A stretch of 32,057 nucleotides of DNA, from the IMG/VR virus record IMGVR_UViG_3300009436_000066, positions 1-32,057 of that record, one strand, 5' to 3'. Of the stretch, positions 26-32,057 are shown in pieces. The translations under genes and the position numbers were made by a program. How positions within the stretch are numbered: the stretch's first letter is position 1; each line of letters begins with the position of its first letter. The stretch is from a virus. The notes under the pieces were generated by a model. The model saw nothing but the letters and a program-made list of their open reading frames with translations. It was not told the origin of the DNA and ran no database searches.

Positions 26-694
26 CTATGGGTTGTACTGCCCTTTGAAATCACCCATTGATATATCAGGCGGGTTAGCTCCGTTTTGTGGAACGCTTTG
101 GTTATAATAAGCAGTGTATGCTGCTCTGCCCTTTGTTCTCCATATCGAATATTTGATGTCGTATGTTCTTATTGGTACACCGAATACGGTTCCCTGCGTA
201 AAGGTATTGCTTATACCCATAGACAGTTCTGTAAAACTTTGCCCTATATAGGGGTAGTTTGTATCTGGGGTAAAGTAAAAGTATCCACTAGTGCTTCCGT
301 AAGATACAGCTGGACCTCCAACATATGAAGTTGGACATGCGGGGTTGTTTGGAGAATTAGTTACTGGAATACTCAGTGTACCTTTAACCTGACCAGCCCA
401 ATACCAAGTGAAATCTATGGTTGTATTAGGAACTAGAACCCAAAATCCTCCAGCATTTTGATACCTCTGCTCGGTTTGCCATCTTGCATAGTTTGTGCTG
501 GGACCGACTGCTGGATAATAGGGGTTATCCAAATAGTACTTTGGGTTATAGGGTACGACTGCTGAGTTGTCAACAAGTCCGGTGTTATTAACGAATCGAT
601 AGTAATTACCAAGGGAAACATTGGAGGAGCTGCCACCATATTCGCCTCTGATATTACTACGCAATCTAATATTAGTTGTGGGTATTTGTGCCAT
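26..694 (-). CDS. Phage structural protein, likely tail-tip or hinge type
   Basis: This is a 222-residue protein. Its N-terminus (IPTTNIRLRSNIRGEYGGSS, then VSLGNYYR) resembles the 'IP.. I...DI..EFGGS..ISLSEYY' module that opens many tail-associated proteins of marine and other tailed phages. The rest is rich in Tyr, Asn, Pro and Gly (for example PKYYLDNPYYPAVGPSTNY) with beta-prone stretches, as in host-recognition or fibre-tip proteins. There is no signal peptide or membrane segment. Its ATG overlaps the stop of the S74 tail fibre by one base (TAATG), so the two are probably translationally coupled. That coupling suggests it joins the same fibre, but the role is inferred from context and composition only. 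No catalytic motif is visible. Confidence 0.72.
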   Translation of the reverse strand: MAQIPTTNIRLRSNIRGEYGGSSSNVSLGNYYRFVNNTGLVDNSAVVPYNPKYYLDNPYYPAVGPSTNYARWQTEQRYQNAGGFWVLVPNTTIDFTWYWAGQVKGTLSIPVTNSPNNPACPTSYVGGPAVSYGSTSGYFYFTPDTNYPYIGQSFTELSMGISNTFTQGTVFGVPIRTYDIKYSIWRTKGRAAYTAYYNQSVPQNGANPPDISMGDFKGQYNP

Positions 695-7200: not shown

Positions 7201-10200
7201 AGCAGTTGGACTATTAGCAGAAGTGCTGATGCCTGATACGATAACAATGCTGCGTTCAGATAAACCATCAACAAGCGAGTCGGTGTTATCAAGTGCGCCT
7301 GTGCTATTGATAGTTCTTTCGGCAAGGGCGACAACCTCTGATGGGGTTGACTGCATGCTACTAGAAGAAGTTATTATGTTCTCTGCGACTGCTGCTACCG
7401 TTGATGGGTCGCTAAGTAATACGCCTTGAGCGTTTATCGTTCTTTCCGCAACACCGCCAATCAGCGCATCGCTTGCTTTCGCAATTGCAACTCCAGTGAA
7501 ACTTCTGTTGATGACTGCTGTAACAATAGAGGGAGTACATTGCAGATTCGCGAATAGATTGTTAATTCCGTTTTCTGCCACACCCGTTATCTTAGAGGGT
7601 TGCGCTTGCAAGTAACCTACTGCCCACGCACCGCGAACTGCACTTCCACTGACGGCAACATCTTGTGCCGCGACTGGTGCGTATTCCATTCCTTTCGGAG
7701 ATTGAATAGTAAGAGTTGTTACTGGTTCTTGTAAGTTTGCAGCATTAGGTAGAGTTATCGTTCCGTTTGCGTTGTAAACTGGTACGCCTGTTATCGTAGC
7801 GCAATACCAAGCGTTTCTTGTAGCGTTCCAATGCATACCCTTAGATGAGGAAGTTCCTGAATTTCTCAGATAAGAGTTGTAGTTAGTGTTATAGGTAAAT
7901 ATCCAATCGCCACCAGACTCTGAAACTGTCCCGCCAAATATCGCTGGCATCAGTTCGCCATTGTATGCAGAGTTACTCATCCCACTCAGTACTGGATATC
8001 TAGGAGTGTAAGACCCTGTGCGAGATGTATAGGTGACCTTGGGCGATACGTCAGAAGGTCCGTATGCAGTCTCACCTGTACCTTCTGGCCAACCATTTAT
8101 GTTGGGAAGTTGATTGATACCCCTTTCACTTATTCCAGAAACTTCGGAAGCATCTCCCTTTATGTTTCCAGTAACAGTGATGATATTTTCAGAGACACCT
8201 TGAACTTGTGATACCGCTGATACTAAATTGCCTACTAATACTACAACGGTTCTTTCAGCGATACCAGATGCAGTTGAAACATCGTCTGGCATATTAACAC
8301 CAGACTCAACTACTACGAGGCGTTCTGCTTCGCCAACAATACTTGATACTTCTGTTTCTAGTATTCCTATGCCTGTAATAATATTTTCTGCAAGTCCAAC
8401 AACAGTAACATCACTTGATTCGAGTCCATCTAATAAGACATTAGATGCTCTAACACCAAGTCCTGAGATGATAGAGTCTGTGCTTTCGAGTTGACCACTT
8501 GAAGTTATTTCGTTCTCTGCCAATCCTACAACCACAACCTCGGTTGACTCTAGAGTAGCGGAACCATTTACTTTTCTCTCTGCTATGGATTCAACTAATC
8601 CATCGGATGCTTTAGGCGTTCCGACAGCATTTATTATTCTCTCGGATAGTCCAGCAACCACCGCATCCGTTGATACGAGTGTGCCACTTGAAGTTATTTC
8701 ATTCTCTGCCAATCCGTCAACTACAGATGCACTTGAAACAAGCGCGGCAGTAGCACCGTTTTGGTCTATGGTTCTTTCAGCAAAACCTTGCAGCACGACA
8801 GGGAAAGTGTCTAGGGTGATATTCATCACTATTGTTCGTTTAGATAGACCCGTAACACTAGACGGTTCAATCTGCGTCAAACCAGTAGCAACAATAATGT
8901 TTTCCGCGACACCTAAGACATTTGATTCGGTTGATGTCAATGCAGCACTTTGTGTAACAACCTTTCTCTCTCCCCTTGCGGAGAAGATGGTGGACGGTTG
9001 AACCTGTGCGATACCAGTAGCAACAATAATGTTTTCGGATGTTCCAACAACAGTTGATGCTTCACTAACAATCCCAACCGATGGGTTGATAATTCTTTCC
9101 GATAGACCAGCAATAATAGATGGCGTTGATACTAAGGATGCAGAAGCGGTGTTGATAACTTCGCCCAGACCAACAACTTCTACCGCATCGCTGACCAGAA
9201 TTCCCGAACCGACTATTAAGTTTTCGGAGACACCAACGACACTGGATGCCTGAGATACAATCACCACAGATGTGACTAGTATTCTCTCGCTTAGTGCATC
9301 AACTAGCGCGTCAGAGGCAACCAGTGATGCCGTAGCACCCCTCTGGTCTATGGTTCTCTCTGCTATTGCATCGACTATGGATGGTTGAGATTCTAATACG
9401 CCAGTGCCAGGGATAGCATTTTCGGATAGACCAATGACTGTAGATGCTTGTGCTTCTATTGAGGCATCAATAACCTTTCTTCTAATTCCAAGTCCTTGAA
9501 CTTCGGATGGATGAGATACAAGCGCACCAGCATCAGACTCAGTTTCTCTTTCAGCAGTACCGACTATTGTAGAACTTTGCGCTTGCAGGATTCCCGTTCC
9601 GTTTATGGCATTTTCGGATAGACCCGTAACTATTGATGCGCTTGTTTCTAATGCGCCTGTTGCAGTGATGACATTCTCAGCAACACCAGACACGCTTGCT
9701 ATCTCAACTTCAAGTGTTCCGCTAGAGTTTATGATTCTCTCAGAGGCACCCTCAATAGTTGCGGCACTTGATATTAATGTGCCAGTGCCTGGAATAACGT
9801 TCTCAACAGTTCCAAGGACGGTCGCGTCTTGAGATTGTATTGATGCTGATATTGTGACTGTTCTCAGTCCAGAACCACCGACTGTCGATTCTTCAGATTG
9901 TAATGTTCCAGAAGCAGTGTTGACGACTTCACCCAGTCCACCAACTATTGATGCGCTTGTTTGCAGCGCACCCGAAGCAAGAATTGCATTTTCAGATAGA
10001 CCAACAACGATGGAGGAAGTAGATGTTAATGCACCAGATGCCGCGATAACATTTTCGGATAGACCGACAACAGTTGATGCCTGTGCCTTCAATAGTCCAT
10101 CTGCAAAGAAGGTTGACTTTTGTCCGTCACCCTCAACACGGGCATCGAATACATAGAGAGTTCCGATTCCTACAACTTGTCGGTTTGATTCACCAGAGAC

Positions 10201-12387
10201 ATTCGCATCTTCAACCTGGGAAATACCAGTAGCATAGTCAGTGAAAGCGGATGCGCCAATAACGAATGATTGCTGTGATACAAGTGTACCGTTGCCCGTA
10301 ACAATATTCTCAGAGGTTCCAGTGACGGACACTGGTTGCATTACCAGTTCAGATATTATTACATATGTATGGACTCCAAGACCACTGGCGTTGGCATCAC
10401 CCACATCTATTACACCAGTCCCAGAAACGGTTCTCTTTGTTTGACCGACAACTTCTGATGACTGCGTGTCCAGTGTTCCAGTTACATTCACTGTTCTTTC
10501 GGATGCACCGAGAACTGTTGATGCTTGTGCTTCAGGTGTTCCAGAACCAGTTGTAATGTTGTCAGATGTGGCGACAACAGTTGATGCTTGTGATTGCAGT
10601 GTTCCTGATGATACTACCGTTCTTTTTATCGTAGCGACAACAGTTGATGCTTGTGCTTCAAGTGTTCCAGAACCAGTTGTAATGTTTTCGGATGTTCCAA
10701 CAACAGTTGACGCTTGTGCTTCCAATGTTCCAGAGGAAGTCATTATTCTTTCAGATAGACCAACAACTTCTGATAACTGTGCTTCCAATGTCCCAGAGGA
10801 AGTCATTATTCTTTCAGATAGACCCTCAACTATTGATACTTGTGATTCTAATGTTCCAGAAGCAATTTCAGCAGGTGCGCCTGTAGCAGACCCATCAACA
10901 TTAGACACTTGTGATTCTAATGTTGCAGTAGAAGTTATCTTTCTTTCAGATAGACCATCAACTATTGATACTTGTGATTCTAATGTTCCAGAAGCATTTA
11001 TTGCGGGTGTGACTCCAGCAGAACCATCAACTATTGATGCTTGTGCTTCTAATGTTCCAGAAGCAGATGTTACTGGTGTGCTTCCACCTACTCCAGATAC
11101 ATCAACAACCTGTGCTTCCAGTATTCCTGAACCAGTTTTAATGTTATCAGATGTAGCAACAACAGTTGATGCTTGTGATTGCAGTGTTCCAGTAGAAGTT
11201 ATCTTTCTTTCTGATGAACCACCTACCGTTGATGCTTGTGATTCTACAACACCAGTCCCTGTTTTAGAGTTTTCGGATAGTCCATCAACTTCTGATACCT
11301 GTGCTTCCAGAGTTCCACTTGAAGTTACACTTCTCTCAGAGAGACCATTTACTGTGGCGACTTCTGCTTGGAGACTTCCACTACCAACTGTAATATTATC
11401 AGATATAGCAGTGATAGTTGATGATTGCGCTTCCAACGCCCCGCTTGATATCAACTTTCTTTCAGAAGAACCGCCAACTGTTGATACTTGTGATTCTACT
11501 ACACCAATCGCTGTCTTAGAGTTTTCAGCAATAGAAGAAACCCCAGATGCTTGCACTTCCAGTGCGCCAGAACCTGTATGGTTATCTACAGCAAGACCAC
11601 TAACCGTTGACGCTTGCGCTTCAAGAGTTCCCGAACCAGTTATTGCGGGTGTGGTTGCAGCAGAACCATCGACTGTCGATACTTGTGCTTGTAGTGTTCC
11701 AGAACCGACACGCATTGGTTCAGATACACCAACTATCAATGATGCTTGCGCCTCTAGTATTCCTGATGCTGACATCTCTCTTTCAGATGCGCCCACAACG
11801 GTAACAATCTGTGCTGCCAGTATTCCAGAACCAGTTATTGCGGGTGTGGTTGCAGCAGAACCAGCGACCTCTGATACCTGTGCTTCCAGTGTGCCTGTTG
11901 AGGTCATCTCTCTTTCTGATGAACCACCTACTGTTGATGCTTGCGACTCGGTAACACCAGTTCCTGTTTTAGAGTTTTCAGCAGTAGAAGAAACTTCGGA
12001 GACTTGTGCCTGTAATCCACCTGTTGCTATCTTAGAGTTTTCGGCAGAACCACCTACTGTTGATGCCTGTGCTTCCAGTGTGCCTGACGCAGTTATGATA
12101 TTTTCTGCTGCACCGACAACAGTAGATGCTTGTGCTTCTAGTGTGCCTGATGCAGTGAATGTTTCGGATACCGATGCTGCACCAACCACTGTTGATACTT
12201 GGTCTTGGAGTTGTCCTGACGCTGATCCACCAGCAGCTCTGATGCCGACATAGAAACCACTCGACAAGACTTCTACATAGTTGGAACCATCCTCAACATA
12301 AACATAACCGTTGTCACTGGTGTAACTTAGACCAGTTGTCGCGGATGCTTGCGCTTGAGGTGTTCCTGATGCTGAATGATCGGCCAA
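4240..12387 (-). CDS. Giant repetitive fibre protein (2715 residues)
   Basis: An 8.1-kb gene built from a 21-residue unit, consensus SGTLEAQASTVVGLSE followed by four or five variable residues. By eye there are about 90-100 copies. Three non-repeat inserts interrupt them near residues 1425-1580, 1717-1841 and 1980-2195; a short one (NGYVYVEDGSNYVEVLSSG) lies near residues 25-55. N-terminal units are the most alike; later ones form subfamilies such as GLSERIINADGAMDTT and DEGDLTCSPSLVV. The last 21 residues are highly basic (KRAFRIRKPKTRR, then ILSRRTIK). The start is TTG at 12387: an in-frame TAA lies three codons upstream, no ATG is nearby, and AGAG precedes it. A late promoter lies 36 bases upstream. 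It has no signal peptide or enzyme motif. A long tail fibre is the likeliest role; the repeat fold is unknown to me. Confidence 0.88.
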   Translation of the reverse strand: MADHSASGTPQAQASATTGLSYTSDNGYVYVEDGSNYVEVLSSGFYVGIRAAGGSASGQLQDQVSTVVGAASVSETFTASGTLEAQASTVVGAAENIITASGTLEAQASTVGGSAENSKIATGGLQAQVSEVSSTAENSKTGTGVTESQASTVGGSSEREMTSTGTLEAQVSEVAGSAATTPAITGSGILAAQIVTVVGASEREMSASGILEAQASLIVGVSEPMRVGSGTLQAQVSTVDGSAATTPAITGSGTLEAQASTVSGLAVDNHTGSGALEVQASGVSSIAENSKTAIGVVESQVSTVGGSSERKLISSGALEAQSSTITAISDNITVGSGSLQAEVATVNGLSERSVTSSGTLEAQVSEVDGLSENSKTGTGVVESQASTVGGSSERKITSTGTLQSQASTVVATSDNIKTGSGILEAQVVDVSGVGGSTPVTSASGTLEAQASIVDGSAGVTPAINASGTLESQVSIVDGLSERKITSTATLESQVSNVDGSATGAPAEIASGTLESQVSIVEGLSERIMTSSGTLEAQLSEVVGLSERIMTSSGTLEAQASTVVGTSENITTGSGTLEAQASTVVATIKRTVVSSGTLQSQASTVVATSDNITTGSGTPEAQASTVLGASERTVNVTGTLDTQSSEVVGQTKRTVSGTGVIDVGDANASGLGVHTYVIISELVMQPVSVTGTSENIVTGNGTLVSQQSFVIGASAFTDYATGISQVEDANVSGESNRQVVGIGTLYVFDARVEGDGQKSTFFADGLLKAQASTVVGLSENVIAASGALTSTSSIVVGLSENAILASGALQTSASIVGGLGEVVNTASGTLQSEESTVGGSGLRTVTISASIQSQDATVLGTVENVIPGTGTLISSAATIEGASERIINSSGTLEVEIASVSGVAENVITATGALETSASIVTGLSENAINGTGILQAQSSTIVGTAERETESDAGALVSHPSEVQGLGIRRKVIDASIEAQASTVIGLSENAIPGTGVLESQPSIVDAIAERTIDQRGATASLVASDALVDALSERILVTSVVIVSQASSVVGVSENLIVGSGILVSDAVEVVGLGEVINTASASLVSTPSIIAGLSERIINPSVGIVSEASTVVGTSENIIVATGIAQVQPSTIFSARGERKVVTQSAALTSTESNVLGVAENIIVATGLTQIEPSSVTGLSKRTIVMNITLDTFPVVLQGFAERTIDQNGATAALVSSASVVDGLAENEITSSGTLVSTDAVVAGLSERIINAVGTPKASDGLVESIAERKVNGSATLESTEVVVVGLAENEITSSGQLESTDSIISGLGVRASNVLLDGLESSDVTVVGLAENIITGIGILETEVSSIVGEAERLVVVESGVNMPDDVSTASGIAERTVVVLVGNLVSAVSQVQGVSENIITVTGNIKGDASEVSGISERGINQLPNINGWPEGTGETAYGPSDVSPKVTYTSRTGSYTPRYPVLSGMSNSAYNGELMPAIFGGTVSESGGDWIFTYNTNYNSYLRNSGTSSSKGMHWNATRNAWYCATITGVPVYNANGTITLPNAANLQEPVTTLTIQSPKGMEYAPVAAQDVAVSGSAVRGAWAVGYLQAQPSKITGVAENGINNLFANLQCTPSIVTAVINRSFTGVAIAKASDALIGGVAERTINAQGVLLSDPSTVAAVAENIITSSSSMQSTPSEVVALAERTINSTGALDNTDSLVDGLSERSIVIVSGISTSANSPTASSTISYSGTNLTLSGYQSQYGLNGTYALTDKRMSIEYTPNPVYQEDGLYQIWQLEVNSSNFNIIVWNDREDLWMVSVGGSVDARTVVAGDSLGNGTNYSIGSATTSTGGGPSTTDALVSGVAEVINTVDSADLTSTPALIVGLSERIINADGAMDTTGSLVTGLSERTINSTGAMTSSESLVTGLSERIINADGAMDTSDSLVAGLSERTINSTGVMDTTESLITGLGEVINTVDEGDLTCSPSLVVALAERTVNKLDVPFVYQQDTNTRGQLPTDWTSGQDFEISFKWVVKAWSTSSYRYLISQTSNIAGSFSLNVTGINNPQTQQFDEMLVVRYYTGTTFRTAEIQIPTLVNSTVDVTISNTSAGLVMTAGGISTGLKPAAAYARIRSIGGLGSSPTLPQIIFDMKFVDNTTSSNTLVYPMDNGSVNKFFAYNSVGAAVTSQNITIANYDSTNWIGGIIPDINVAPALVSGLGVRHSNSLGTPTLSAQPATIDGLSERSIVEVDATPKAQDATIVSVGVRTSNALDATPKAQPATVVGLSENTITGAGVLVSQQSVIVGLSENIIPGTGVLDTTESLSTGVAERIIRPAISLEAGLSTTAAVTKRSLFPIAATVISQPSIVVGDVERVLFGTGVLTVVESQVTGLGEVINTARGDISPSDALAVGAGFRTANGLATPLQASPSTTTGLGEVINTVDEGDLTCSPSLIVGNGVRVSNDLSADVKAQPAIAVGLSERIIRPQVSLTSTASLVTGLGEVINTVDEGDIICSPSLVVGNGVRHANSLSADTQAQPATVDGLSERTIVEIEADLSDGDVSVSATSGNGERKLITSRAKVVCEPSGVVGAGFRTSNSLATPIVVDDASVTGLSERIITVTGSLVSTDVEMTGLSERIITGAGNVVAQDCVVNSLSERSSTGSGVLNTTDSIVIGTVERTVTGSGILESDDSSITAIVYQNIIEQDAIPTKRAFRIRKPKTRRILSRRTIK
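5800..6440 (-). other. Insert 3 of the giant protein: LamG-like module
   Basis: Around residues 1980-2195 the repeats give way to a globular beta-rich domain: WTSGQDFEISFKWVV, a central RYYTGTTFRTAEIQIP, then IIFDMKFVDN and LVYPMDNGSVNKFFAYNSVG. The end of the module matches two modules in the wedge protein at 25306-27696 (YPMREGSGDIFKAY and YPMQDGTGTTMLAY). The strand pattern suggests a concanavalin/LamG-like jelly roll, a fold that often binds sugars. Confidence 0.6.
6865..7235 (-). other. Insert 2 of the giant protein: unknown small domain
   Basis: Residues of about 1717-1841 contain no repeats. They read as a compact beta domain: LTLSGYQSQYGLNGTYALTD, then YQIWQLEVNSSNFNIIVWND and REDLWMVSVGG. 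The pattern 'GLNGTY ... W.L......IIVWN....W.VS' suggests a small domain of the kind found in phage and marine bacterial surface proteins. I cannot name the family. Confidence 0.5.
7650..8110 (-). other. Insert 1 of the giant protein: unknown small domain
   Basis: Residues of about 1425-1580 form a non-repeat block with GDWIFTYNTNYNSYLRNSG, KGMHWNATRNAWYC and YNANGTITLPNAANLQEPVT. The mix of Trp, Tyr and Asn differs sharply from the Ser/Thr/Val/Gly repeats around it. It looks like a separately acquired ligand-binding or spacer domain; the family is unknown to me. Confidence 0.5.
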
Positions 12388-13073: not shown

Positions 13074-13301
13074 TTACTTCTCTAATAATTGTTTTAAGAG
13101 TGACTTGATATCTTCCATATCTTCTTTAAGATTTTCGATATCAGTTTTTATTTTAATGCTTTCTGCTTTGCTTTTGAGTTTAGATGCCTTCCTTTTCCGC
13201 GCAGCATTTATCTCATTAACGTTAGTATTTAGTATAGTTCCACGCTCCACATTTTTTACAATGTGGGCGTGTCCCTCAACCTTCTTATAATCATCACTCA
13301 T
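13074..13301 (-). CDS. Small coiled-coil phage protein
   Basis: A 75-residue, highly charged protein beginning MSDDYKKVEGHAHIVKNVERGTI. The N-terminal part (VEGH.H.V..V..G.I.NTN) resembles a small protein often seen beside structural genes in T4-like marine phages. Residues of about 32-75 are Lys/Glu-rich and predicted helical, ending in a heptad-like coiled coil (IENLKEDMEDIKSLLKQLLEK). Its ATG shares a base with the TAA of the 1902-residue gene (TAATG), and its stop lies one base before the next ATG, so it is tightly coupled on both sides. It may be an assembly factor or a small virion component; the function is unknown. Confidence 0.8.
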   Translation of the reverse strand: MSDDYKKVEGHAHIVKNVERGTILNTNVNEINAARKRKASKLKSKAESIKIKTDIENLKEDMEDIKSLLKQLLEK

Positions 13302-16300
13302 TATATAAGTGCGATAGCGCGGATCGATCCTATCACTGGAATCTCACAAGTGTTTGTGGTCTTCATAACAACCTTCAACTGGAAGGATGTAAAGTCATCA
13401 AGGTCGCCATTAACACCACCCAAAAGATAACGATACTCAGAGTAGAAAAGATTTAGAGGATCGTATGTTAACGCCTCAAACTTATCATCTGGAGGACTGT
13501 TATCAGGTGTTGCTGCTATCCAAGTGACACCGTAGATATCATCGTCCCCATTCGACAAACGATAGTAGAGGTCAAAGGATGCAGATGGTGGTTTGTTGAT
13601 ATCAACAAACACCTTGATACCACTTGCTGCTAGATCAAGAACAACGGGTTTGGTGATCTGCTTTGATGGACTTGAACCAGATTGTGGATTTGTCTCAGGG
13701 ACAAAGAAGAACGGTTTGTTCTGCACTGCGTTACCAGACTCTCCTGCACTATCAACTTGGTTATCTATCTGGAAGTTCTGCATAGTAAAGTTACATTTCT
13801 GTAGGTCAATGATAGGCGAAACATCAGACACATATCCATCTGCTTGTTGCTGTGGAGTCGTGTTACCGAAAGTAGATGTTATCGTGCTTTTCATATTAGC
13901 AGACAAAACTATTGACGGACCATTTGCAGATTGAGCATCCAATTCCATATCAGAGTCACCAAGCAACCTTGGGTTGCTGTAATATATTGGTGCGTTATTT
14001 CTGATTGTCGTAACTCCTCCTCTCGCAAATCTTGGGTCATTCGCACCAGACAAGGATAACTTAGACAGAGAGTTGCCAGACATAAAGTCGCCTTCATAGT
14101 TTATTGAAGTCCCTTCAAAGTCTAGTGATGTAAAGTTCATCAATGCTCGGTCAAAGTTGAAAGCATTGTTTGTCTCACAGACAGTTTCTCCAAATACACC
14201 AGCAGATGTAAACGTGCCTCCATTTGGGACGTTAACAAAGTATCCAGCAGCATCTGCCTCATTGACAACGTTGTCCTTATTCAGTATCTGACTGCCAGTA
14301 AGACCAAGGTAATCCTTCGCATCTATTAACCCAGTCAGTGCAACAGAGTCTCCAATACCAAGACCGTGTGCAAACTGATTGACACGGAAGCGAGTAAAGT
14401 CGGCAGAGTCAACAGACATCATCAGTTGGTTGTGAACAAACTTAGGATAGGTAGAGTTGTAAAAGTTTACGTTACCCTCAGATTTGAACTTGGCGGTGTG
14501 GATTCTATATGCCATGTTCTGATCTTGTTGTGCTGTCCAAGTTGAACCATTCTGTGACAAGAACAAGGAACCTGATGCTGGTTGCTTATTGATTCTGCTT
14601 GTAGTCTTACCAAGAACCAATCCATAAGTGGTAGAAACAAATGCTTCGTAGTTGTCACACTCTGCTAACAACACGATTGCGTATTCAGTCCCACCCGCAA
14701 GATAAACAGGTTCGTCAAACACAAAGGTTACAGGGTTGGCAAGAACATCATCAAGGTTTTCCAAGTCGGCAATATTGTTAACAACATCGTAACAATCGTC
14801 AGCAGACTTGTAAACTCTAAACTGTTCAGTAACAGGATGTGATTTTGGAACACCTGCTTCAGTCTCTCTTATTTGTAACTGGAGAGGTATGGCAGTTTGA
14901 GTTCCACCATTCTGATCGGTTACTGGAGCTCTCCTCAAGTACACATCAACCTTTGTTACAAATGCCCCAGGCAATCCTGTTCGTGCATCAATCTCAAAAG
15001 ACTGTGCAAGTGGGTCATACTTGTATACCGTAAATCCAGTATTACTTGTGTTAGTGGTTTGCGTTGTCCCAGCAATGTTCCTAGTGTATCTGCTTGTCTG
15101 TTGTTGAACTCGTACAAGTCCCATAGCAGGATAGGTCATAGACGCTCTTGAAAGTGCTTGCGATTCATCCGCGCCTTGTCCATTGACAGGAGAAACATCC
15201 AAGAGTTTCATCTGTAAGATTCCACCCCTAAATTTCCAACCTAATGCATCATAGACAGTTGGGTCTTTTATACTAGCACCTGTAGCAGATGATAATCGCT
15301 GCTGCTCATCGCCCCACTCTCTCCACTCTTCAAAAGATGAAAATGCGCGACCATTGTTAGAAGGGACTTTCCTATTGTTAGGTAGATAGAAAGAGTAATA
15401 CACTTCGCCCAGTCTATTCGTAACCAGATCACTAGAACCATCGGGAGCAGATAAAATATTAACGTTGACAGGTTGATAAGTTTTAAGATGATCGCCATCT
15501 TCTAAATGCTTATCGTATCGCGCTTCAGTCAGTGCATGACACCACTGAGACACATCAACGCCTTCAAAGTATGGCCAGTAGCGAGTATCTGGACGCAAAC
15601 CTTGCGCCTTACAGTAGATGGGTCGCGACCTAGCAAAAGGATACGCAACTACCATTCTTTCGTTCTTACGAGAAGTGAGAGTGGTTGTAGTCTTAATGTT
15701 CGATGATGTTCTTGAGAAACTTACACCGGCTCGGACTTTAAAGGAACTATTTCTCGGTGCATCCTTATTCATTATGTCTATGTCGTTTTGGACATTTCTT
15801 GCTGCCGCTTCTTCGGTCGCTGCCTCCAAAGACATCCCATCGTTATTGACGATATTGATAGGAAGAAGTCGCCTTACATTTCTGATAGTCGTTGTAATAT
15901 TGATATCAGGAAGATGAATATCGTCAAACCATAAGTCCCTCTCTGGAGATAGTTTCAAACTACCTTCGCCAGTGAAAACATTGAATGGGTTGACGTTGTA
16001 ATAACCACTCTCTTCGTAGTCAACGCCACCAGATTTCCAAGAGATAGATTGGTTTACTAATGACTCATCCAAAGTATCAACGTAGTCGAGATAGATAGTA
16101 TCACCAACATGCTTGTAGTTATTATTACCATCGTTGTTTAGTTTATCGTAGACAACCGCTCGACCCCTTTCGTATCCACCAGCGTTTGTGTCACCGCCTG
16201 AATCAAACATCAGCGAGACTGCTGCGCGAGCGTTCTTAGGTTCGATAGCGTAAGTAGTTTCCCCAGTTTGTAAAAGTGTTTGACCAACAAGGGCAAAGTC

Positions 16301-19009
16301 TTCTTGCCATGTTGGACCGACTGGAGATGCTGTAAAAGCAAGACCGTTTGTAAAGTCATCTACAAAGAATCCCGTCTTTGAACGAACCGCCCCATCGCTG
16401 TCCAGTTCAACCAAGTTAATGGCAGACTGTTCGATAGCAGTTAGAGAAACAGTTTCTTCTAACAGTTCTACGCGATCTTCTAGAACTTGAATATCTTCCA
16501 TAGTAAAGCGTTTGTAGCTATGAGTAACAACCGCCATGTCTGTTGTACTAATAGTATTCCCACCATAGTTAATAGTAAACAGTATCATTTCTGATGTGAC
16601 TGGTGGTGGCGCGTGAGCAGTCAACTCCTCAAACCCTGTATGTATTCTTATCTCAGATTTGAATGTTGTGGGGTTGTATCCTAAAGAGACATTATCAACT
16701 CTTCGGTTGTACCATTCAATATCGTAACTTATTTGCCCACCATCTTTCGGAAGTCTAAACCTATCTGCTGCTGGCATAACTTCTAAAGAAGTATCCAACT
16801 TAGAACGGAAATCAAACTGGTTTCTCAAATCGTAGGCAATGCCGTTGCGACCAGAGGTGTAAACTGGTATCTCTGAATATGAGAACTTAGGTTCTGTGTC
16901 AGTCGAGTCTACTGCGGCAACTAACCTGTAAGAATTGACAGAAAGGAAGTCTCCAGCACTGACATCGTTTGACCATTCAAAGTTATCGATCTTTGCATAT
17001 ATGGTTCTAATCGAACCTTCAAGACCAGCACGTTTTAATTTAATTGGAGAATAGAAGTTGTCGCGTTGACCGCCATCGAACTCTAGAACATCGGCAACGG
17101 GAACTTGTGTTGCGCCATCTAAACGATAAGCACCTAGTAGACGAACACCGTCATATTTGGCACCGCCCGTTCTTACAAAGTCAGCACTATCATTAGGGGA
17201 AGTCCACTCTTCAAAACCACTTCGTGTAAAGGTTTTGATTTTTGCTGAAGCACCCAAGTCAGTAGCAAGGGCAAACACGCAATAGTTTCTGGAGGCAGTT
17301 AGACCAGTTACCGTAGCAATATTTCCAGCAAGGGTAATGGTTGTAACAATTTCCATTTTATCGTCATCAAGGTTTATGAATATCCACTCTAGAATATTAT
17401 CAAATCTATTTTCGATTCCACAGTCAAGAGACATGCCACCAGAATTATCGCTTGGTTGGAAGAACTGTCGCTGTGATGAGAACAATACATCACTGACACT
17501 CTTTGCTCGACCACCTGGAATTTCAAACAGGGAGGTATTGATTTCTGGTTCTACGATATAAGCATTTGTTCCTTCAAGGAAAACAGGCATACGTTCAGCA
17601 TCAGAACCAGCAGAGATAAAGTCTACTGTGCGGAAGTTTTCATCATCGTCCATTCTGACATCATACAGATATACTTGAACACCTTTAGGTGATGCGTTTG
17701 GCAGTCTAGTCAAAGACTTGATTCTGGTTGTTCCTATCTGCTGATTGGCAGCGTTGAACAATTTGAATTGTGTTTGAGTTCTCAGATCACCACTTGATGG
17801 CCACTCCCCAAGTCCCGAATCCACATCGGTAGTATTTGATACTGGGATAAAGTTTCTGTATGCTATGGTTGTTGTAGTGTTATTTTCTATAGTAGTACTT
17901 ACTGGTTTTAGAATCGCATAGTCTGAATCAAAGGATTGTTCCAACCTATATCCGTCAACGAATGCAGTTGCTGACCCCTCAGTTGAGAGTCCTAGAACGC
18001 TCATCGTCAGACTTGATTGGTCATTTCCTGCTTGATATGAAAGACCAAATGGATTAACTATAAAGTCACCATTAGTATCAAACTGTCGTTGCGCCATGCG
18101 CGTTTCTATCTGATTATAGTCGTTGTTAGGTGTCTTTATCTTAGCGACAAGTCCACCCTTGACTTGAGCAAAGGATAGAAAGTCTAATTCATCAGCGACT
18201 GCATCCTTTGTAGTAAGTATCAAACGGATACGATATCGGTCTGCACCAGGAGATGCTAAGTTAGGGACAGCACCCTGATTGTCATAAAGACTAACATCAT
18301 CTTCTACAGTAACGATGTCTTGAATTACTTCAAAACCAACGTCCACATCAACGTCAATCTCGAATGGAGAAATGACAATCTCTTGTTTCTCAACAAAGAC
18401 AAAGTGACCTTGTGTGTAAAAATTGCTTTGCTGTATTGTGAACAACAAACCTTGACCAGTTGACAAAGGTGCGCCTGAACGAGTGGCAACTACTATTGGT
18501 GTCAGTGGAACAGCGTCTTGATCGCTAAGATTATCACCATCGGTAAATGTCGGAACCTGCCCTTGGACATCTGATGATGTAACGCCAGATTGGTCTGCGG
18601 AAGTATAGTTTCCATAGAGAGTTGCGTATGAAGTTCCATCAATTGCTGGCATTGCAAAGGTAACAGTGAACTCCAAACCGTTATGAACATTGCTTACTGC
18701 TGGACCTTTTAATACCCTACCAACATATCGCTGTACCGAGGTGTTACCAAGATTGCTCGTATCGATCAAGACATAGGATGTTTGCTTAACTCCCGAACCA
18801 CCAGATGCATTAGTAACAGAAGCACCATCTTGAAAAATGTTGTCAGCAAATGTGCTGATTTGATTTTGCAGAATAGTCTGTAACTGTGTCAGTTCCCTTG
18901 CTTGAAGATAACGAGAACTATTAAAGAGTACCTTATAAAAACCCGCACTGTCCGAGTAATCATCATGATAGACATCTTTGATAGTCTGTTCTGTAAAATC
19001 CTTTGGCAT
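13301..19009 (-). CDS. Very large DUF4815-type baseplate/tail structural protein
   Basis: A 1902-residue protein. The N-terminus (LFNSSRYLQARELTQLQTILQNQISTFADNIFQDG) is the start typical of DUF4815 phage proteins. Other family-like marks are DGGQRDNFY near residue 645 and a helical LEDRVELLEETVSLTAIEQ near 836-860. YDPLAQSFEID near residue 1330 is followed by GAFVTKVDVYLRR and LQIRETEAGVPKS. Much of the rest is beta-rich. It follows gp8 directly, where T4 encodes wedge and pin proteins (gp9, gp10), so it is probably a large peripheral baseplate or fibre-base component. Equivalence to a given T4 protein cannot be shown. An AAGGATAG ribosome site precedes the ATG. No signal peptide or enzyme motif was seen. 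Confidence 0.88.
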   Translation of the reverse strand: MPKDFTEQTIKDVYHDDYSDSAGFYKVLFNSSRYLQARELTQLQTILQNQISTFADNIFQDGASVTNASGGSGVKQTSYVLIDTSNLGNTSVQRYVGRVLKGPAVSNVHNGLEFTVTFAMPAIDGTSYATLYGNYTSADQSGVTSSDVQGQVPTFTDGDNLSDQDAVPLTPIVVATRSGAPLSTGQGLLFTIQQSNFYTQGHFVFVEKQEIVISPFEIDVDVDVGFEVIQDIVTVEDDVSLYDNQGAVPNLASPGADRYRIRLILTTKDAVADELDFLSFAQVKGGLVAKIKTPNNDYNQIETRMAQRQFDTNGDFIVNPFGLSYQAGNDQSSLTMSVLGLSTEGSATAFVDGYRLEQSFDSDYAILKPVSTTIENNTTTTIAYRNFIPVSNTTDVDSGLGEWPSSGDLRTQTQFKLFNAANQQIGTTRIKSLTRLPNASPKGVQVYLYDVRMDDDENFRTVDFISAGSDAERMPVFLEGTNAYIVEPEINTSLFEIPGGRAKSVSDVLFSSQRQFFQPSDNSGGMSLDCGIENRFDNILEWIFINLDDDKMEIVTTITLAGNIATVTGLTASRNYCVFALATDLGASAKIKTFTRSGFEEWTSPNDSADFVRTGGAKYDGVRLLGAYRLDGATQVPVADVLEFDGGQRDNFYSPIKLKRAGLEGSIRTIYAKIDNFEWSNDVSAGDFLSVNSYRLVAAVDSTDTEPKFSYSEIPVYTSGRNGIAYDLRNQFDFRSKLDTSLEVMPAADRFRLPKDGGQISYDIEWYNRRVDNVSLGYNPTTFKSEIRIHTGFEELTAHAPPPVTSEMILFTINYGGNTISTTDMAVVTHSYKRFTMEDIQVLEDRVELLEETVSLTAIEQSAINLVELDSDGAVRSKTGFFVDDFTNGLAFTASPVGPTWQEDFALVGQTLLQTGETTYAIEPKNARAAVSLMFDSGGDTNAGGYERGRAVVYDKLNNDGNNNYKHVGDTIYLDYVDTLDESLVNQSISWKSGGVDYEESGYYNVNPFNVFTGEGSLKLSPERDLWFDDIHLPDINITTTIRNVRRLLPINIVNNDGMSLEAATEEAAARNVQNDIDIMNKDAPRNSSFKVRAGVSFSRTSSNIKTTTTLTSRKNERMVVAYPFARSRPIYCKAQGLRPDTRYWPYFEGVDVSQWCHALTEARYDKHLEDGDHLKTYQPVNVNILSAPDGSSDLVTNRLGEVYYSFYLPNNRKVPSNNGRAFSSFEEWREWGDEQQRLSSATGASIKDPTVYDALGWKFRGGILQMKLLDVSPVNGQGADESQALSRASMTYPAMGLVRVQQQTSRYTRNIAGTTQTTNTSNTGFTVYKYDPLAQSFEIDARTGLPGAFVTKVDVYLRRAPVTDQNGGTQTAIPLQLQIRETEAGVPKSHPVTEQFRVYKSADDCYDVVNNIADLENLDDVLANPVTFVFDEPVYLAGGTEYAIVLLAECDNYEAFVSTTYGLVLGKTTSRINKQPASGSLFLSQNGSTWTAQQDQNMAYRIHTAKFKSEGNVNFYNSTYPKFVHNQLMMSVDSADFTRFRVNQFAHGLGIGDSVALTGLIDAKDYLGLTGSQILNKDNVVNEADAAGYFVNVPNGGTFTSAGVFGETVCETNNAFNFDRALMNFTSLDFEGTSINYEGDFMSGNSLSKLSLSGANDPRFARGGVTTIRNNAPIYYSNPRLLGDSDMELDAQSANGPSIVLSANMKSTITSTFGNTTPQQQADGYVSDVSPIIDLQKCNFTMQNFQIDNQVDSAGESGNAVQNKPFFFVPETNPQSGSSPSKQITKPVVLDLAASGIKVFVDINKPPSASFDLYYRLSNGDDDIYGVTWIAATPDNSPPDDKFEALTYDPLNLFYSEYRYLLGGVNGDLDDFTSFQLKVVMKTTNTCEIPVIGSIRAIALI

Positions 19010-27699: not shown

Positions 27700-29610
27700 T
27701 TATACCCTGCTTGTAACTGTTACCGCATTCACCGAAGATTCAGCAGCGTCATATTTTAATATGCCACTGAACTTAGGTATGATAGCAGACTCGTTAGCAG
27801 GACTTCCAAAAACCTTAATAAAATTAGTTGCGCTGTTTGTACTTTGAACGTTCAAGTTCAGTATCTCAACATCACCAGAGACAGGGTCATAGTATCCCAT
27901 GTAGTCTTTTACAACCACACCCTTTGTGTCAACCATCTCCAACTTGTTGGATGGTTTCCTATCAAAGACTATCGGAACTACGCCAGCAGCAGATACTCTA
28001 ACTTTGTCGTAAAGTTTATTTCTTATATAAACATCCCTGTTTAGATATTTGAAGAATCCAGTCCTGAGTACAGGTGTGGTTAGTTCATCTGGATTCTTTA
28101 GAGAAGTACCAAAGGTGAATTTTTGATTTTCGGGTAAGGTCAGTATAGGGATTATTCTTTTCTGCAACGTCACATCTGCTCTTGATGATAAGACTGATGG
28201 ATCAGAATCGTCAACTTCTGTCAGGAGGTTAGACCTACGGAATGTTTGCGCGAACTTGCCGATGTTTTTTGTAAAGTAATTGGTGACAGTCTTCTGAACA
28301 GAGGCATCAACATCCGATTGACTTGTTGCACCAAGCAGAGGATTGTATTGGAAAAATAAGTTAGTAGACACATAGGTTTCACTAGGTGCAATGAACTTGA
28401 TATTAAATGACACGATAGAAAGTTCTTTAGTCAAGTCAATAATCTCTCTTCGCAGTTCAGTAACAGCAGTACTACTAAGGTTGTCTTTCCAAACGATTGA
28501 TGAGAATGTTGTTCCATACTCAGGTGGGAGATTATCTTCTCCACCCCAACAGATAATATCAGTAATGAAGTTACCATACTTACGCAAGATGAGTGCTTCG
28601 TAATCCAGTGGAGTCACCATACGATTTTGTGCAGAGTATTGAAAGGGTGCTTTCTTACGAATAGATTCGATCCCCTCTTTCTCTGTTCCACCAGCAGATT
28701 TAGTTTTTGTGGTAATGGTCACTTCATCAGCAGAGATGTTGTAGTTACCAAACTTCAATGCGCTGATAAGTCTAAAGGAAGAAATACCATCAGAAGTTGT
28801 ACCACTCGCTCGCAGATAGTTTACGTTTACAACGTTACCTGCGAGGGGAGAAAGACCCAATGAATTAAAAGCACCAAAGGTCAACTCGTAGAATTTGTTG
28901 GGAGACTCTCGCAACACATAGAGAGTAGACTGGTCTGTGATAGATGAAGTTTCAAATATGTCATTGTAAACAGTATATGCACCAATTCCAGTTGCGGCAA
29001 CTGCGGGGTCTGTATAAACTTTGATGATGGCGGTGCTTGCATCTATGTTCTGGTCAGGTATTACATAGAGAGCATTCTCGCTATTATCTACCAAGTATTG
29101 TTGGTTTCTTTCCTCTCCCTCGTAAACAACGATTGAAGATTCAGGATCATCAAATGGATAGAAGGTATAAATGTTTGTACCTTCTGCATCTGCGGTTATT
29201 GTTTTCCTGTTACTGAATGTGTAAACATCACCATCCATGCTCCCTCTAAGAACCAACTCTCCAGGTTGGAAAGAATAAACTTGGTCGAAAGGAAAATCGC
29301 CAGAAGGTTTAATAGTAAGACCAATAGTTGCCTGAGATGAATTCCTAGTTCCTGGAATATATCCTAAAGACTCTGCCAAAGACACAACCGAGTTTCTCAA
29401 CTGCGCGGTTCCAAGATAAGATTCGTTCAAAGCAAAGTTTGCAATGAGTCCACTGAAATGAGTATTGTATGCCAACACATCCAGAAGACTGTTCAGACCA
29501 GAACCTTCAAAGTCATAATCCGAGAACTGAGCATCCTGTTGGAAGTAGACTTTTAGTTTAGACTTAATCTCTTCAAAGTCTAACTCTGTCGATGTAATAG
29601 TTGTCGCCAT
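27700..29610 (-). CDS. gp6: Baseplate wedge subunit gp6
   Basis: A 636-residue protein, close to T4 gp6 (660). The start (LDFEEIKSKLKVYFQQDAQF) and SGLNSLLDVLAYNTHFSGLIANFALNESYL are characteristic of gp6, followed by QLRNSVVSLAESLGYIPGTR. Later signs are a Baseplate_J-like core (GIESIRKKAPFQYSAQNRMV, TPLDYEALILRKYGNFITDI) and VVKDYMGYYDPVSGDVEILN. In T4, gp6 dimers form the continuous ring around the baseplate that rearranges when the sheath contracts. It follows gp25 by 5 bases, with an AAGG site before the ATG, and these two proteins touch in the wedge core. Confidence 0.95.
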   Translation of the reverse strand: MATTITSTELDFEEIKSKLKVYFQQDAQFSDYDFEGSGLNSLLDVLAYNTHFSGLIANFALNESYLGTAQLRNSVVSLAESLGYIPGTRNSSQATIGLTIKPSGDFPFDQVYSFQPGELVLRGSMDGDVYTFSNRKTITADAEGTNIYTFYPFDDPESSIVVYEGEERNQQYLVDNSENALYVIPDQNIDASTAIIKVYTDPAVAATGIGAYTVYNDIFETSSITDQSTLYVLRESPNKFYELTFGAFNSLGLSPLAGNVVNVNYLRASGTTSDGISSFRLISALKFGNYNISADEVTITTKTKSAGGTEKEGIESIRKKAPFQYSAQNRMVTPLDYEALILRKYGNFITDIICWGGEDNLPPEYGTTFSSIVWKDNLSSTAVTELRREIIDLTKELSIVSFNIKFIAPSETYVSTNLFFQYNPLLGATSQSDVDASVQKTVTNYFTKNIGKFAQTFRRSNLLTEVDDSDPSVLSSRADVTLQKRIIPILTLPENQKFTFGTSLKNPDELTTPVLRTGFFKYLNRDVYIRNKLYDKVRVSAAGVVPIVFDRKPSNKLEMVDTKGVVVKDYMGYYDPVSGDVEILNLNVQSTNSATNFIKVFGSPANESAIIPKFSGILKYDAAESSVNAVTVTSRV

Positions 29611-29615
29611 TATTA

Positions 29616-30137
29616 TTACCTTAACCTGTTCATATTAACGTCAATGCTGACGAGTTCGTCTGTGTTTAGTATTTGTACAATCACCGTTATCATAATAGCA
29701 TATCTTGCTTCGCTACTATTGCTCCAATAAGTTAAACTCGCAGCACCTTTAGGTATAACCTTATCTGATGCAAGGTCGGTGAAGACTACGTCTTCTACTT
29801 TAACCCGTGGTTCGTATTTTCTGATAGCACTACGGACAACATTATTGATGACACTTTCTGAGTAACTTTCTACATGCTCAAACAAGAACGTTCTTAGGTC
29901 TGCACCAAAATCTGGTTGGAAAGGTTTCTCGTATTTATTAGTAAGAAGTATCGTTGTTATACTTTGAGTGACTGCTGCAACGTCAACCTTCTTATATATG
30001 TCTCCTCGCCTCACACCATCTGCTTCTACAGTTCCCCTCTTTGGGAGGAATATCAAATCTAAATCACTGTAGAACCTATGCTTCTTAGTTACAAGAGTCG
30101 TATCGGTAAGTCCTGGTGTTATTCTTTTTAGTGCCAT
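29616..30137 (-). CDS. gp25: Baseplate wedge subunit gp25
   Basis: A 173-residue GPW/gp25-family protein; T4 gp25 has 132 residues, so this form has an N-terminal extension. The family signature is clear: SITTILLTNKYEKPFQPDFG, then a helix (SYSESVINNVVRSAIRKY) and the EPR core motif at residues 109-111 (EPRVKVEDV), ending with a beta strand (YAIMITVIVQI). In contractile injection systems gp25 joins the wedge core and is proposed to nucleate sheath assembly; older 'lysozyme' labels for the family are not supported here. It is the first gene after a perfect late promoter, with a leader of about 22 bases, and heads an apparent unit gp25-gp6-wedge-spike. Confidence 0.95.
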   Translation of the reverse strand: MALKRITPGLTDTTLVTKKHRFYSDLDLIFLPKRGTVEADGVRRGDIYKKVDVAAVTQSITTILLTNKYEKPFQPDFGADLRTFLFEHVESYSESVINNVVRSAIRKYEPRVKVEDVVFTDLASDKVIPKGAASLTYWSNSSEARYAIMITVIVQILNTDELVSIDVNMNRLR

Positions 30138-30178: not shown

Positions 30179-32057
30179 CTAATCAGTTATCTCAACGAGT
30201 GAACCAGATTTTAGCATTTGTCTGTTAAAATATGTACAAACACTTTGTGCAAAGGTTGCCTTAAAGTCTTTCTTTATTTTTGGCATGACGATAAGTATTT
30301 GCTGACCCATAAGATTATCAGGTCTAGTAGTATCATAGTCAAGACTCAGTTGGTCAAAGTTAAAGGTATCTCTTATGTATAAGGAAAGATCATACCCAGC
30401 ACTGTAGTCAACTTTACCGCGAGAGTTGAAGAGGGTATATGCCACCGCCCTACCTTCATACTTCAGTTGGTTTATTGTGATGCCACCAGCAACGATAGAC
30501 TTCTGTGTACCACCACCATCTTCTGTGCGATATGGTTCTCTCCAATAACGATTACCACTGCCCTTAAACTTTTCACGAATACCGTTGGCGGGATAATAGA
30601 ACCCCTCAGTAACTTGCAGACGATAGTTTGCAAACTGCTTAGACGATGCAACACCATCCATCAGCATGGCATGCAGATACCACTGTCGGGCAAGGTCTTG
30701 CCTATCAATGATGAGGGGGATAAATTCGAGGGATGCTCTTGAACCTGCTGCGCCTAAAAACTTTCCAACAGTCGCTGACCTTGACAGTTTAGAACTTGAG
30801 GAAATAGGAGCATCGTGCTTGTCAGGATTGTAGAGTGGGTCGGCAAGGATGGTCTTAGACACTGCCTTGATTTTTGAAGTAAATGTCTTAGACCTTCGCT
30901 CTACTGGGTTGCCCATCAAAGTATATCCAAACCTTGCGGATGGAGTCGCAGACCCCTCACGCTTCATTTGATAAGGTGCTTCGGGTGCGGGAATCTTATA
31001 CTTGGGAGAGATTCGGTTCTCATCCAGAAGAGTGCTTATACATTTCGGTCCGTCAGTCTGCTTCTCTGGTGCAGTTGCAGTATCGTTTGCTCCGTCAATC
31101 GTTCGCAACTTGGAACGAATCTCAGCAATGTCTGGAGTCCATTTAAAGTAATTACTATATCCTCTTTTAGATGTAGGAGTTCCAGATTTTGAAATCTTCT
31201 CTTCCGCAATGTCATCCTCATCAATCATCACGCTGCGTACTGCGAATGGGGAAACCTTATTCCAAACCTCTGCCCATTCTGGAGTGGCAATATAGTCATC
31301 CGCACCGTCAGAAGTGGTCGCACTAAAAGGATACTTCAATATAACATCTGGTGCAGTAGCGGATGCTAAAAAAGATATGTAAGGACTGTTGGAGGGAACG
31401 ACAGCGGGTGGGATTACTACGGGTGGAACCGCAATCCCTGTGATTTCTCCCGCAATAACGGCAGCGTTTGCGCCAGAAGAATGCCCAGCAAGCTCTGCGA
31501 AATTGGACACAACAGAACTGTATGCCCAGACTGCCTTCTTAGCATACAGAGAATTCTTCGCTTCTAGCGCACAACCGAATAGCGAACCTTCAAAGGTTGC
31601 TTTAGAAACTCCATCACCATCGTAGTCTTTCTCTCCGCTAAAGTTTGAACCGACAAACTGGAAGTCTGCTCCACCGACTCTTCCTGTCTTGCCTGTTACC
31701 CTCGTATCCTCAGAAGATATCACTGCTACTTTACCAGAAGTTGCAGTAAAATATTCGTATGCGGTAAGACGGACATGACGCTTTGAGTTTACTATGAAAT
31801 CATTCTTGGTAATGAATCGCAAGTCTTTCTTAGTAGCAATCTTTCTTTCACCTACATGGAAGTCAACAGTGTCGCCATAGACTTTCACATCCTTGTTACC
31901 CCGAACCACCGTAGAATGGGCATCGCCAGTTTCGGTAATGTATGTTCCGTGTACAGAGTTGTTGGAGTTTGCTCCAACATCAAGGTTGTAGTTGCCATTT
32001 ACTTTGAGATTGTAGTTTCCGTTTACAGTGAGATTCATATCCCCATCATAAACAACG
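30179..32057 (-). CDS. gp5: Baseplate hub/needle protein gp5-like, 5' end outside window
   Basis: The frame stays open through the right edge, so the N-terminus is missing; residue numbers here start from the Met at 32038. Residues 1-125 are short beta repeats (LTVNGNYNLKVNGNYNLDVG, later FITKNDFIVNSKRHVRL) like the intertwined beta-helix of gp5/VgrG needles. A linker rich in Pro and Val (IAVPPVVIPPAVVP) follows near 201. Residues of about 440-600 resemble the Hedgehog/DD-peptidase fold: YRLQVTEGF at 472-480 and LKYEGRAVAYTL at 525-536. The His and Asp that bind zinc in Hedgehog (LHYEGRAVD) are Lys526 and Ala533 here, so zinc catalysis is unlikely. No T4-type lysozyme motif is visible in the part present. 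The needle pierces the outer membrane; the C-terminal domain's job is unknown. Confidence 0.85.
   Translation of the reverse strand, partial: VVYDGDMNLTVNGNYNLKVNGNYNLDVGANSNNSVHGTYITETGDAHSTVVRGNKDVKVYGDTVDFHVGERKIATKKDLRFITKNDFIVNSKRHVRLTAYEYFTATSGKVAVISSEDTRVTGKTGRVGGADFQFVGSNFSGEKDYDGDGVSKATFEGSLFGCALEAKNSLYAKKAVWAYSSVVSNFAELAGHSSGANAAVIAGEITGIAVPPVVIPPAVVPSNSPYISFLASATAPDVILKYPFSATTSDGADDYIATPEWAEVWNKVSPFAVRSVMIDEDDIAEEKISKSGTPTSKRGYSNYFKWTPDIAEIRSKLRTIDGANDTATAPEKQTDGPKCISTLLDENRISPKYKIPAPEAPYQMKREGSATPSARFGYTLMGNPVERRSKTFTSKIKAVSKTILADPLYNPDKHDAPISSSSKLSRSATVGKFLGAAGSRASLEFIPLIIDRQDLARQWYLHAMLMDGVASSKQFANYRLQVTEGFYYPANGIREKFKGSGNRYWREPYRTEDGGGTQKSIVAGGITINQLKYEGRAVAYTLFNSRGKVDYSAGYDLSLYIRDTFNFDQLSLDYDTTRPDNLMGQQILIVMPKIKKDFKATFAQSVCTYFNRQMLKSGSLVEITD
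30239..30721 (-). other. Hedgehog/DD-peptidase-like domain at the gp5 C-terminus
   Basis: This covers residues of about 440-600 of the gp5-like protein. Two short blocks match the Hedgehog N-terminal domain in the same order: VTEG (LRVTEGW in Hedgehog) and YEGRAV. The first zinc His and the Asp are replaced by Lys526 and Ala533. The region where Hedgehog has HIH reads QQILIV. It looks like a metal-free version of the fold; alignment is by eye. Confidence 0.6.

Follow-up and report, generated by a model that had tools for sequence, protein, structure and literature searches.

The question raised by the last gene of this marine virus is what kind of domain ends its spike protein, and whether that domain could still act as an enzyme. 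The window (the whole stretch of DNA analysed, a 32,057-base IMG/VR virus record) closes with a minus-strand gene encoding a gp5-like spike protein, at the C-terminus of which the initial annotation had placed a Hedgehog-like, apparently metal-free pseudo-enzyme. Counted from its first ATG, the spike reading frame is 619 amino acids long. The features of the locus are as follows.

30179..32056, minus strand: gp5-like baseplate spike protein, 625 amino acids, 5' end cut by the contig end
31568..32056, minus strand: beta-helix needle (gp5 C-terminal repeats), matching phrog_430/694/4540 and, weakly, Gp5_trimer_C; N-terminus incomplete
31286..31567, minus strand: variable linker, 3 of 93 reference columns invariant, median dN/dS 0.245
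30845..31285, minus strand: conserved linker region (EVWNKVSPFAVR...IRSKLRTIDGAND...), 40 of 147 columns invariant, median dN/dS 0.057
30182..30844, minus strand: zinc-less Hedgehog/M15-type domain, 221 amino acids (from hhalign, AlphaFold2, VIA-align and Foldseek)
30602..30613, minus strand: VTEG, core strand 1, aligned with ITSG/VTNA of intact phage M15 domains and VTEG of Hedgehog
30467..30598, minus strand: active-site-loop insert of 44 amino acids (...RYWREPYRTEDGGGTQKS...), between VTEG and the Lys motif
30428..30466, minus strand: LKYEGRAVAYTLF, with Lys in place of the zinc His and Ala in place of the zinc Asp of HxxGxAxD
30332..30397, minus strand: GYDLSLYIRDTFNFDQLSLDYD, helix and strand with the DQL motif and with Asp where intact relatives have the catalytic Glu
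30281..30304, minus strand: QQILIVMP, the strand equivalent to WIH(I/V)S / HIH but lacking a His; strand 180-186 of the predicted model, after strand 165-171
30182..30238, minus strand: C-terminal tail CTYFNRQMLKSGSLVEITD, aligned to VMTFxNHxxY..GLxxLA of intact hub M15 domains
29616..30137, minus strand: gp25-like wedge protein, downstream neighbour (GPW_gp25, E 1.4e-12)
27700..29610, minus strand: gp6-like wedge protein (phrog_219, E 1.9e-123)

From the window alone, the gp5-like identity of the protein is weak (Gp5_trimer_C, E 0.018; phrog_430, E 1.3e-4), and T4 gp5 chains are weak PDB matches of the needle. In full-length relatives the identity is clear (phrog_430, E 1e-22 to 1e-26). As in a T4 gp5-type spike, a beta-helix with gp5 repeats is encoded beside gp25 and gp6. 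OB and lysozyme domains were not found in the same chain; relatives have them in a separate upstream gene, and the window ends before that gene. The conserved linker between needle and C-terminal domain (147 residues) has no assigned fold. Elsewhere, the window encodes a probable tail fibre of 809 amino acids with a Peptidase_S74 chaperone at its end (694-3123), a 1902-amino-acid protein with DUF4815 (13301-19009), and a minus-strand reading frame of 2715 amino acids with no Pfam match (4240-12387), opposite which runs a frame of 595 amino acids (10466-12253).

The same C-terminal domain was found in 14 and then in 47 loci in scans of viral contigs (57-98% identity; the two sets overlap), and a further scan, aimed at zinc-less relatives at greater distance, yielded the same contigs again. 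Full-length relatives are 770-907 amino acids long and share one order of parts: a short N-terminal part, the beta-helix, the variable linker, the conserved linker and the C-terminal domain. In six loci, three genes lie upstream of the spike gene: a Gp5_OB gene, one of no known family and one that encodes an Amidase_2 domain. Downstream of it are gp25 and then gp6. The Gp5_OB gene, which also has a weak match to Phage_lysozyme2, is visible only where a locus extends far enough. Because the OB domain lies in a separate upstream gene, gp5 is split in the zinc-less group. The three upstream genes are presumably present in the window's own virus as well, judging from L001-L003, whose domains are 95-98% identical to that of the window. 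Phage C48C1, nearest by gp6 (35.6% identity), was considered as a relative and set aside; it has a short gp5 from which the domain is absent.

The C-terminal domain belongs by profile homology to the Hedgehog/M15 superfamily (clan MD). Compared by hhalign, the zinc-less family and the intact M15 family of phage hubs align with a score of 39.0 (P 1.7e-5); the highest score among 200 column shuffles was 22.9. An earlier run gave 38.1 (100 shuffles, maximum 24.2; reversed profile, 12.0). In a comparison of 69 profile pieces from the same gene clusters, the four holding parts of the domain scored 27.5-38.0 and the other 65 at most 20.7. Of the 36 or 37 zinc-less rows in these alignments, 16 or 17 were retained by hhalign. 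When the 225 ORFs of 29 loci were ranked with an HMM of the intact domain, 29 of 29 zinc-less hub proteins took ranks 1-29. Their scores were low, at 2.2-10.2 bits against 1.0 for the best of the remaining ORFs, and the 29 proteins, being related, count as one observation. The initial annotation had rested on the words VTEG and LKYEGRAVAYTL, and both are indeed found at their reported positions in the C-terminus of the gp5-like protein. Taken by itself, the N-terminal half that holds VTEG and GRAV gives no significant match (hhalign score 12.4, P 0.31), and the "YE" of YEGRAV is replaced in relatives (KNNGRAV, KHSGRAV, KYQGRAV), which keep GRA[VC][AV]Y. The significant signal comes from the C-terminal half, GYDLSLYIRDTFNFDQLSLDYDTT and the tail (score 38.5, P 2.2e-6), a block that had not been cited. 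The domain is also wider than first drawn, at about 30182-30844, its C-terminal location standing.

The link to Hedgehog itself runs through the intact family. For the intact hub domains, Sonic hedgehog is the best PDB match by sequence (E 0.05), and hhalign aligns the two with the zinc residues in register (score 38.6, P 9.4e-6). For the zinc-less family, a direct comparison with Sonic hedgehog gave 22.8, within 100 column shuffles (maximum 27.9). Pfam returned no M15 or Hedgehog match for the domain in any of nine members, PDB sequence searches with the domain alone returned nothing of M15 or Hedgehog type, and PHROGs searches with four full-length relatives gave useful E-values for the needle part only. 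A tblastn search with the domain in phages yielded only Acinetobacter and Pseudomonas phage proteins at E 4-8, which were rejected, the Acinetobacter protein being without the M15 motif. With no Pfam match, no significant direct match and no recognisable zinc or calcium sites, the domain does not group with the Hedgehog signalling domain proper (PF01085). Its nearest relatives are the phage hub M15_3-type peptidases, and Hedgehog is a superfamily cousin. The term "Hedgehog-like" is thus apt for the superfamily, to which both fold and profile lead, but not for the closest kin.

The predicted fold points the same way. With nine zinc-less sequences, AlphaFold2 gave a model of pLDDT 48 in the order helix-strand-strand-helix-strand-strand, and fold searches with it returned noise only (LysB4 at Z 2.7, rank 33; best Foldseek match in the PDB, E 0.68). 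With 36 zinc-less and 46 intact sequences, pLDDT rose to 84.2 and pTM was 0.84 (five models, 81.8-84.2); since the alignment contained the 46 intact homologues, this model is not an independent test of the fold. Its order of elements agrees with that of the nine-sequence model. In a VIA-align search of the PDB with the confident model, rows 1-29 were all Hedgehog (Z 6.4-4.9; best 3ho5, rmsd 2.7 over 104 residues), followed by VanX, Ply500 and LysB4 at Z 4.2 to 4.0 and by unrelated rows from 3.7 down; by the program's own note a Z below 8 can reflect a common arrangement, but here every row that ranks ahead of the unrelated ones belongs to a single superfamily. Foldseek found nothing in the PDB at E 0.001 or better (Ply500 first, E 0.93). 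Against viral models, its first match was the gp5 of phage pf16 (E 4.4e-9), and the matches also included Peptidase M15A proteins and a 701-residue protein of the same length as the gp5 of Cr30; the named pf16 and Cr30 loci are not rows of the model's alignment. By this model, built with intact homologues in its alignment, the domain is predicted to have the Hedgehog/M15 fold, in line with the comparison to Hedgehog and VanX-type folds that the initial annotation had proposed. Neither of the two outcomes that would have counted against that annotation, a missing profile match and an unlike fold, was observed.

Intact counterparts of the domain are found at the same place in other phages. The gp5 of the Synechococcus phage BUCT-ZZ01 has a plain M15-type domain at its end, after the beta-helix (...SAFRRGNGKSQHNKGQAVDFVF...PFDQMILEYL...TTWLHISY...). 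A tblastn search with this domain matched 136 phage records, among them the gp5-type hubs of pf16, four Melnitz phages and Cr30, PAAR-type tip proteins, and peptidase M15 genes of Pelagibacter phages. The intact domain terminates gp5 in BUCT-ZZ01, pf16, Melnitz-3 and Cr30, and terminates PAAR-type proteins in Astolliot, PA5oct and Vibrio 1.244.A; such fusions to PAAR-type tip proteins of large phages lie at L071:2955-3959, L072:2919-3941 and L073:2961-3950. A scan of viral contigs added 80 intact loci, 79 of which have HxxGxAxD and E..W.H by pattern (the exception, L143, reads HGTGQGAD and still keeps His and Asp); the regular expression that labelled beta-helix hubs among them is rough. The curated cut-off of Peptidase_M15_3 (23.2 bits) was passed by two of four intact relatives tested (L091, 33.3; L136, 60.2), the others matching only under it. 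The closest layout is that of the Methylophilales phage Melnitz-3, where, as in the zinc-less group, gp5 is split into an OB gene and a beta-helix gene with the M15 domain, followed by gp25 and gp6. Its OB-domain protein (L069:919-1959) itself has a VanY-like domain (E 1.1e-4, just below cut-off), so the Melnitz-3 hub may carry two M15-type domains. The hub peptidase is not discussed in the Melnitz paper.

The zinc-less domains differ from these counterparts at every catalytic position that can be recognised. The roles of zinc His, zinc Asp and catalytic Glu are those that we take from established knowledge of M15 and Hedgehog proteins. In a joint alignment of 36 zinc-less loci with 46 of the 80 intact ones (82 of 83 listed rows, L039 being left out), the zinc His column is Lys in all 36 zinc-less rows (27 distinct sequences) and His in 46 of 46 intact rows. 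The zinc Asp column is Val (28) or Ala (8) in the former and Asp in all 46 of the latter, and the catalytic Glu column is Asp in 36 of 36 against Glu in 46 of 46. Lys526 and Ala533, numbered from the first ATG, were named correctly in the initial annotation, and its suggestion that gp5 homologues with an intact site be sought is borne out by the hubs of other T4-like phages, which keep His and Asp. The strand expected to bear the second zinc His reads QQ[IL][LI][IV]V, and the window has no His after DQL. The sequence given earlier for the HIH region, QQILIV, is present at 30281-30304 without a His; its column is gapped in the alignment, and its placement depends on the predicted strand 180-186. 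By the same token, the domain shows neither the HxxxxxxD zinc motif nor the catalytic Glu and second His of Peptidase_M15_3 (PF08291). The zinc residues are lost as the word "metal-free" had implied, and on the evidence of these residues the domain would be without a metal.

Loss of the site has not been followed by decay. Across 27 full-length sequences, from which conservation and dN/dS were computed, the two stretches of the domain that flank the insert have 34 of 84 and 32 of 95 columns invariant, the highest share in the protein, with median dN/dS of 0.049 and 0.051 (14 and 8 usable pairs). The 44-residue insert, which is absent from intact relatives, has 9 of 42 reference columns invariant and a median dN/dS of 0.205 (40 pairs); the figure for the variable linker comes from 15 pairs. 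The zinc-less domain is the best conserved part of the spike protein and is under strong purifying selection.

Two other domains of wall-hydrolase type are encoded by neighbouring hub genes. In 19 of 19 aligned sequences, the lysozyme-like domain of the OB protein has G[VI]L..[IV]SG where Cr30 and L089 have GN[LI]..ES. Judged by eye, its Glu seems to be lost too, a call weakened by an acidic residue one place earlier in several of the sequences. OB-fold hub proteins with Phage_lysozyme2 below cut-off, in which Glu is apparently replaced by Ile or Val, are encoded at L002:810-1739, L056:73-987 and L034:158-700, and hub-cluster proteins with a C-terminal Amidase_2 domain at L034:1756-3234, L056:1792-3324 and L002:2619-4172. 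Two His and one Asp are retained in all 23 sequences of the Amidase_2 neighbour; these are presumably the ligand positions, by AmpD. An amidase HMM matches 29 of 29 zinc-less loci and none of 30 intact gp5-M15 loci, the latter hand-picked from the intact-locus table and the four named phages; the flanks compared are unequal in length. By Pfam, Amidase_2 occurs once in each of eight zinc-less records and in none of 13 intact records, including four complete phage genomes; the records are fragmentary, and fragments can hide genes. Because the zinc-less group is one clade, the association counts once. Peptidase_M15_3 has no match in any of the eight zinc-less records, nor does PAAR_motif, which could be missed in fragments. 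From its place among hub genes, the amidase would be a virion protein.

We consider it likely that a dead Hedgehog/M15 pseudo-peptidase ends the spike as a structural or peptidoglycan-binding tip, with cutting passed to the Amidase_2 protein. The domain would descend from an active zinc peptidase domain of the kind that ends the spike or the PAAR tip elsewhere in contractile-tail phages. With all recognisable catalytic positions changed (His to Lys, Asp to Val or Ala, Glu to Asp, and probably a second-zinc-His strand without His), neither zinc binding nor M15-type cutting is expected. Purifying selection would have kept this pseudo-enzyme as the folded end of the spike, where its most likely task is still contact with peptidoglycan, or else capping and guiding of the spike; its position would be at or near the tip because its counterparts are fused to PAAR tip proteins or end the gp5 needle. 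Cutting of the wall during entry would be the task of another hub protein, the Amidase_2 protein encoded directly upstream; it seems to have moved to this protein, whose gene lies beyond the window's end, and the dead domain is apparently still strongly preserved because the neighbouring enzyme now cuts. The earlier proposal of a pseudo-enzyme, structural or peptidoglycan-binding, gains from the changed site in all 36 rows together with the strong conservation, and the role would be one or the other. The idea that a DD-peptidase-type domain had replaced the hub lysozyme fares less well: a peptidase-type domain is present, but it is probably ancestral to such hubs and not a simple swap. A broader version, which we hold to be about evenly balanced, is that the whole hub exchanged its wall enzyme: the lysozyme and the Hedgehog/M15 domain are both dead yet conserved, one of them has acquired a new loop and serves for targeting or as a tip module, and a recruited Amidase_2 cuts.

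The same conservation could be read otherwise. A purely structural role, in which the domain is a trimer cap or a chaperone-like beta-helix end that replaces the PAAR tip and binds no ligand, would agree both with the strong conservation and with the lack of a PAAR_motif match in eight of eight records. Spike caps elsewhere, however, are small PAAR or gp5.4 proteins, and the long variable linker from needle to domain argues against a tight cap, which makes this role rather unlikely. The many invariant charged residues and the extra loop at the old active site might instead mark a neo-functionalised enzyme, with a new site made of the conserved Lys, the RYWREPYR..DGG insert, IRD and DQLSLDYD. 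This we regard as improbable; no catalytic family matches, an Amidase_2 is already there, and within the domain conservation is lowest in the insert (dN/dS 0.205; 9 of 42 columns), which is unusual for a new active site.

A further objection would be that the likeness to Hedgehog/M15 is a convergence of short words in a domain of another fold. The insignificance of VTEG and GRAV alone, the direct Sonic hedgehog score lying within shuffles and the poor model obtained from zinc-less sequences alone all speak for it. Yet profile, ranking and structural comparisons agree with one another, and the order of genes and domains is the same as in Melnitz; convergence was judged very unlikely. The dead pseudo-peptidase at the end of the spike thus remains the preferred reading.

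Set beside known systems, the spike protein most resembles the T4-like gp5 hubs of BUCT-ZZ01, pf16, Melnitz-3 and Cr30, with an M15_3-type domain after the beta-helix, the DQL helix-strand block and the tail. These hubs differ in keeping HxxGxAxD, Glu and WIH and in being without both the insert and, in the 13 intact records, Amidase_2. With the Hedgehog HH_signal domain and the bacHh peptidases its C-terminal domain shares the predicted fold (Z up to 6.4, 104 residues, 22% identity) and the words VTEG and YEGRAV; unlike Hedgehog, it is part of a phage spike. The endolysins Ply500 and LysB4 and the M15 enzyme VanX share its predicted fold (Z 4.0-4.2); all three are active zinc enzymes, stand-alone or in lysis. 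A parallel loss of zinc ligands within the superfamily is described for Drosophila Hedgehog (PMC6027127). In another report, the hub protein gp15 of cyanophage A-1(L) has lysozyme, endoglucanase and peptidase domains, the last two of which hydrolysed host cells (PMC10966104). An active peptidase in a hub, which may be of another type, is thus already known, whereas the domain studied here is expected to be inactive. A cell-wall hydrolase domain on a hub is a known kind of arrangement and zinc-ligand loss is known for Drosophila Hedgehog. Searches of the open-licence papers in PubMed Central turned up no zinc-less M15/Hedgehog domain in a phage hub, nor one on a spike together with an exchanged amidase.

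Together with its intact counterparts, the domain forms a natural series in which active and dead versions of the Hedgehog/M15 fold occur on a single machine, the phage spike. Such a series makes a non-cutting role of the fold testable, which is the same question as that asked of Hedgehog itself. It suggests that phage spike domains are not just enzymes, and that the region of a protein with the strongest conservation can be a dead domain. It also shows how the wall-cutting enzyme of a hub may come to be replaced, and it bears on the many hub proteins to which "tail lysozyme" is given as a default label.
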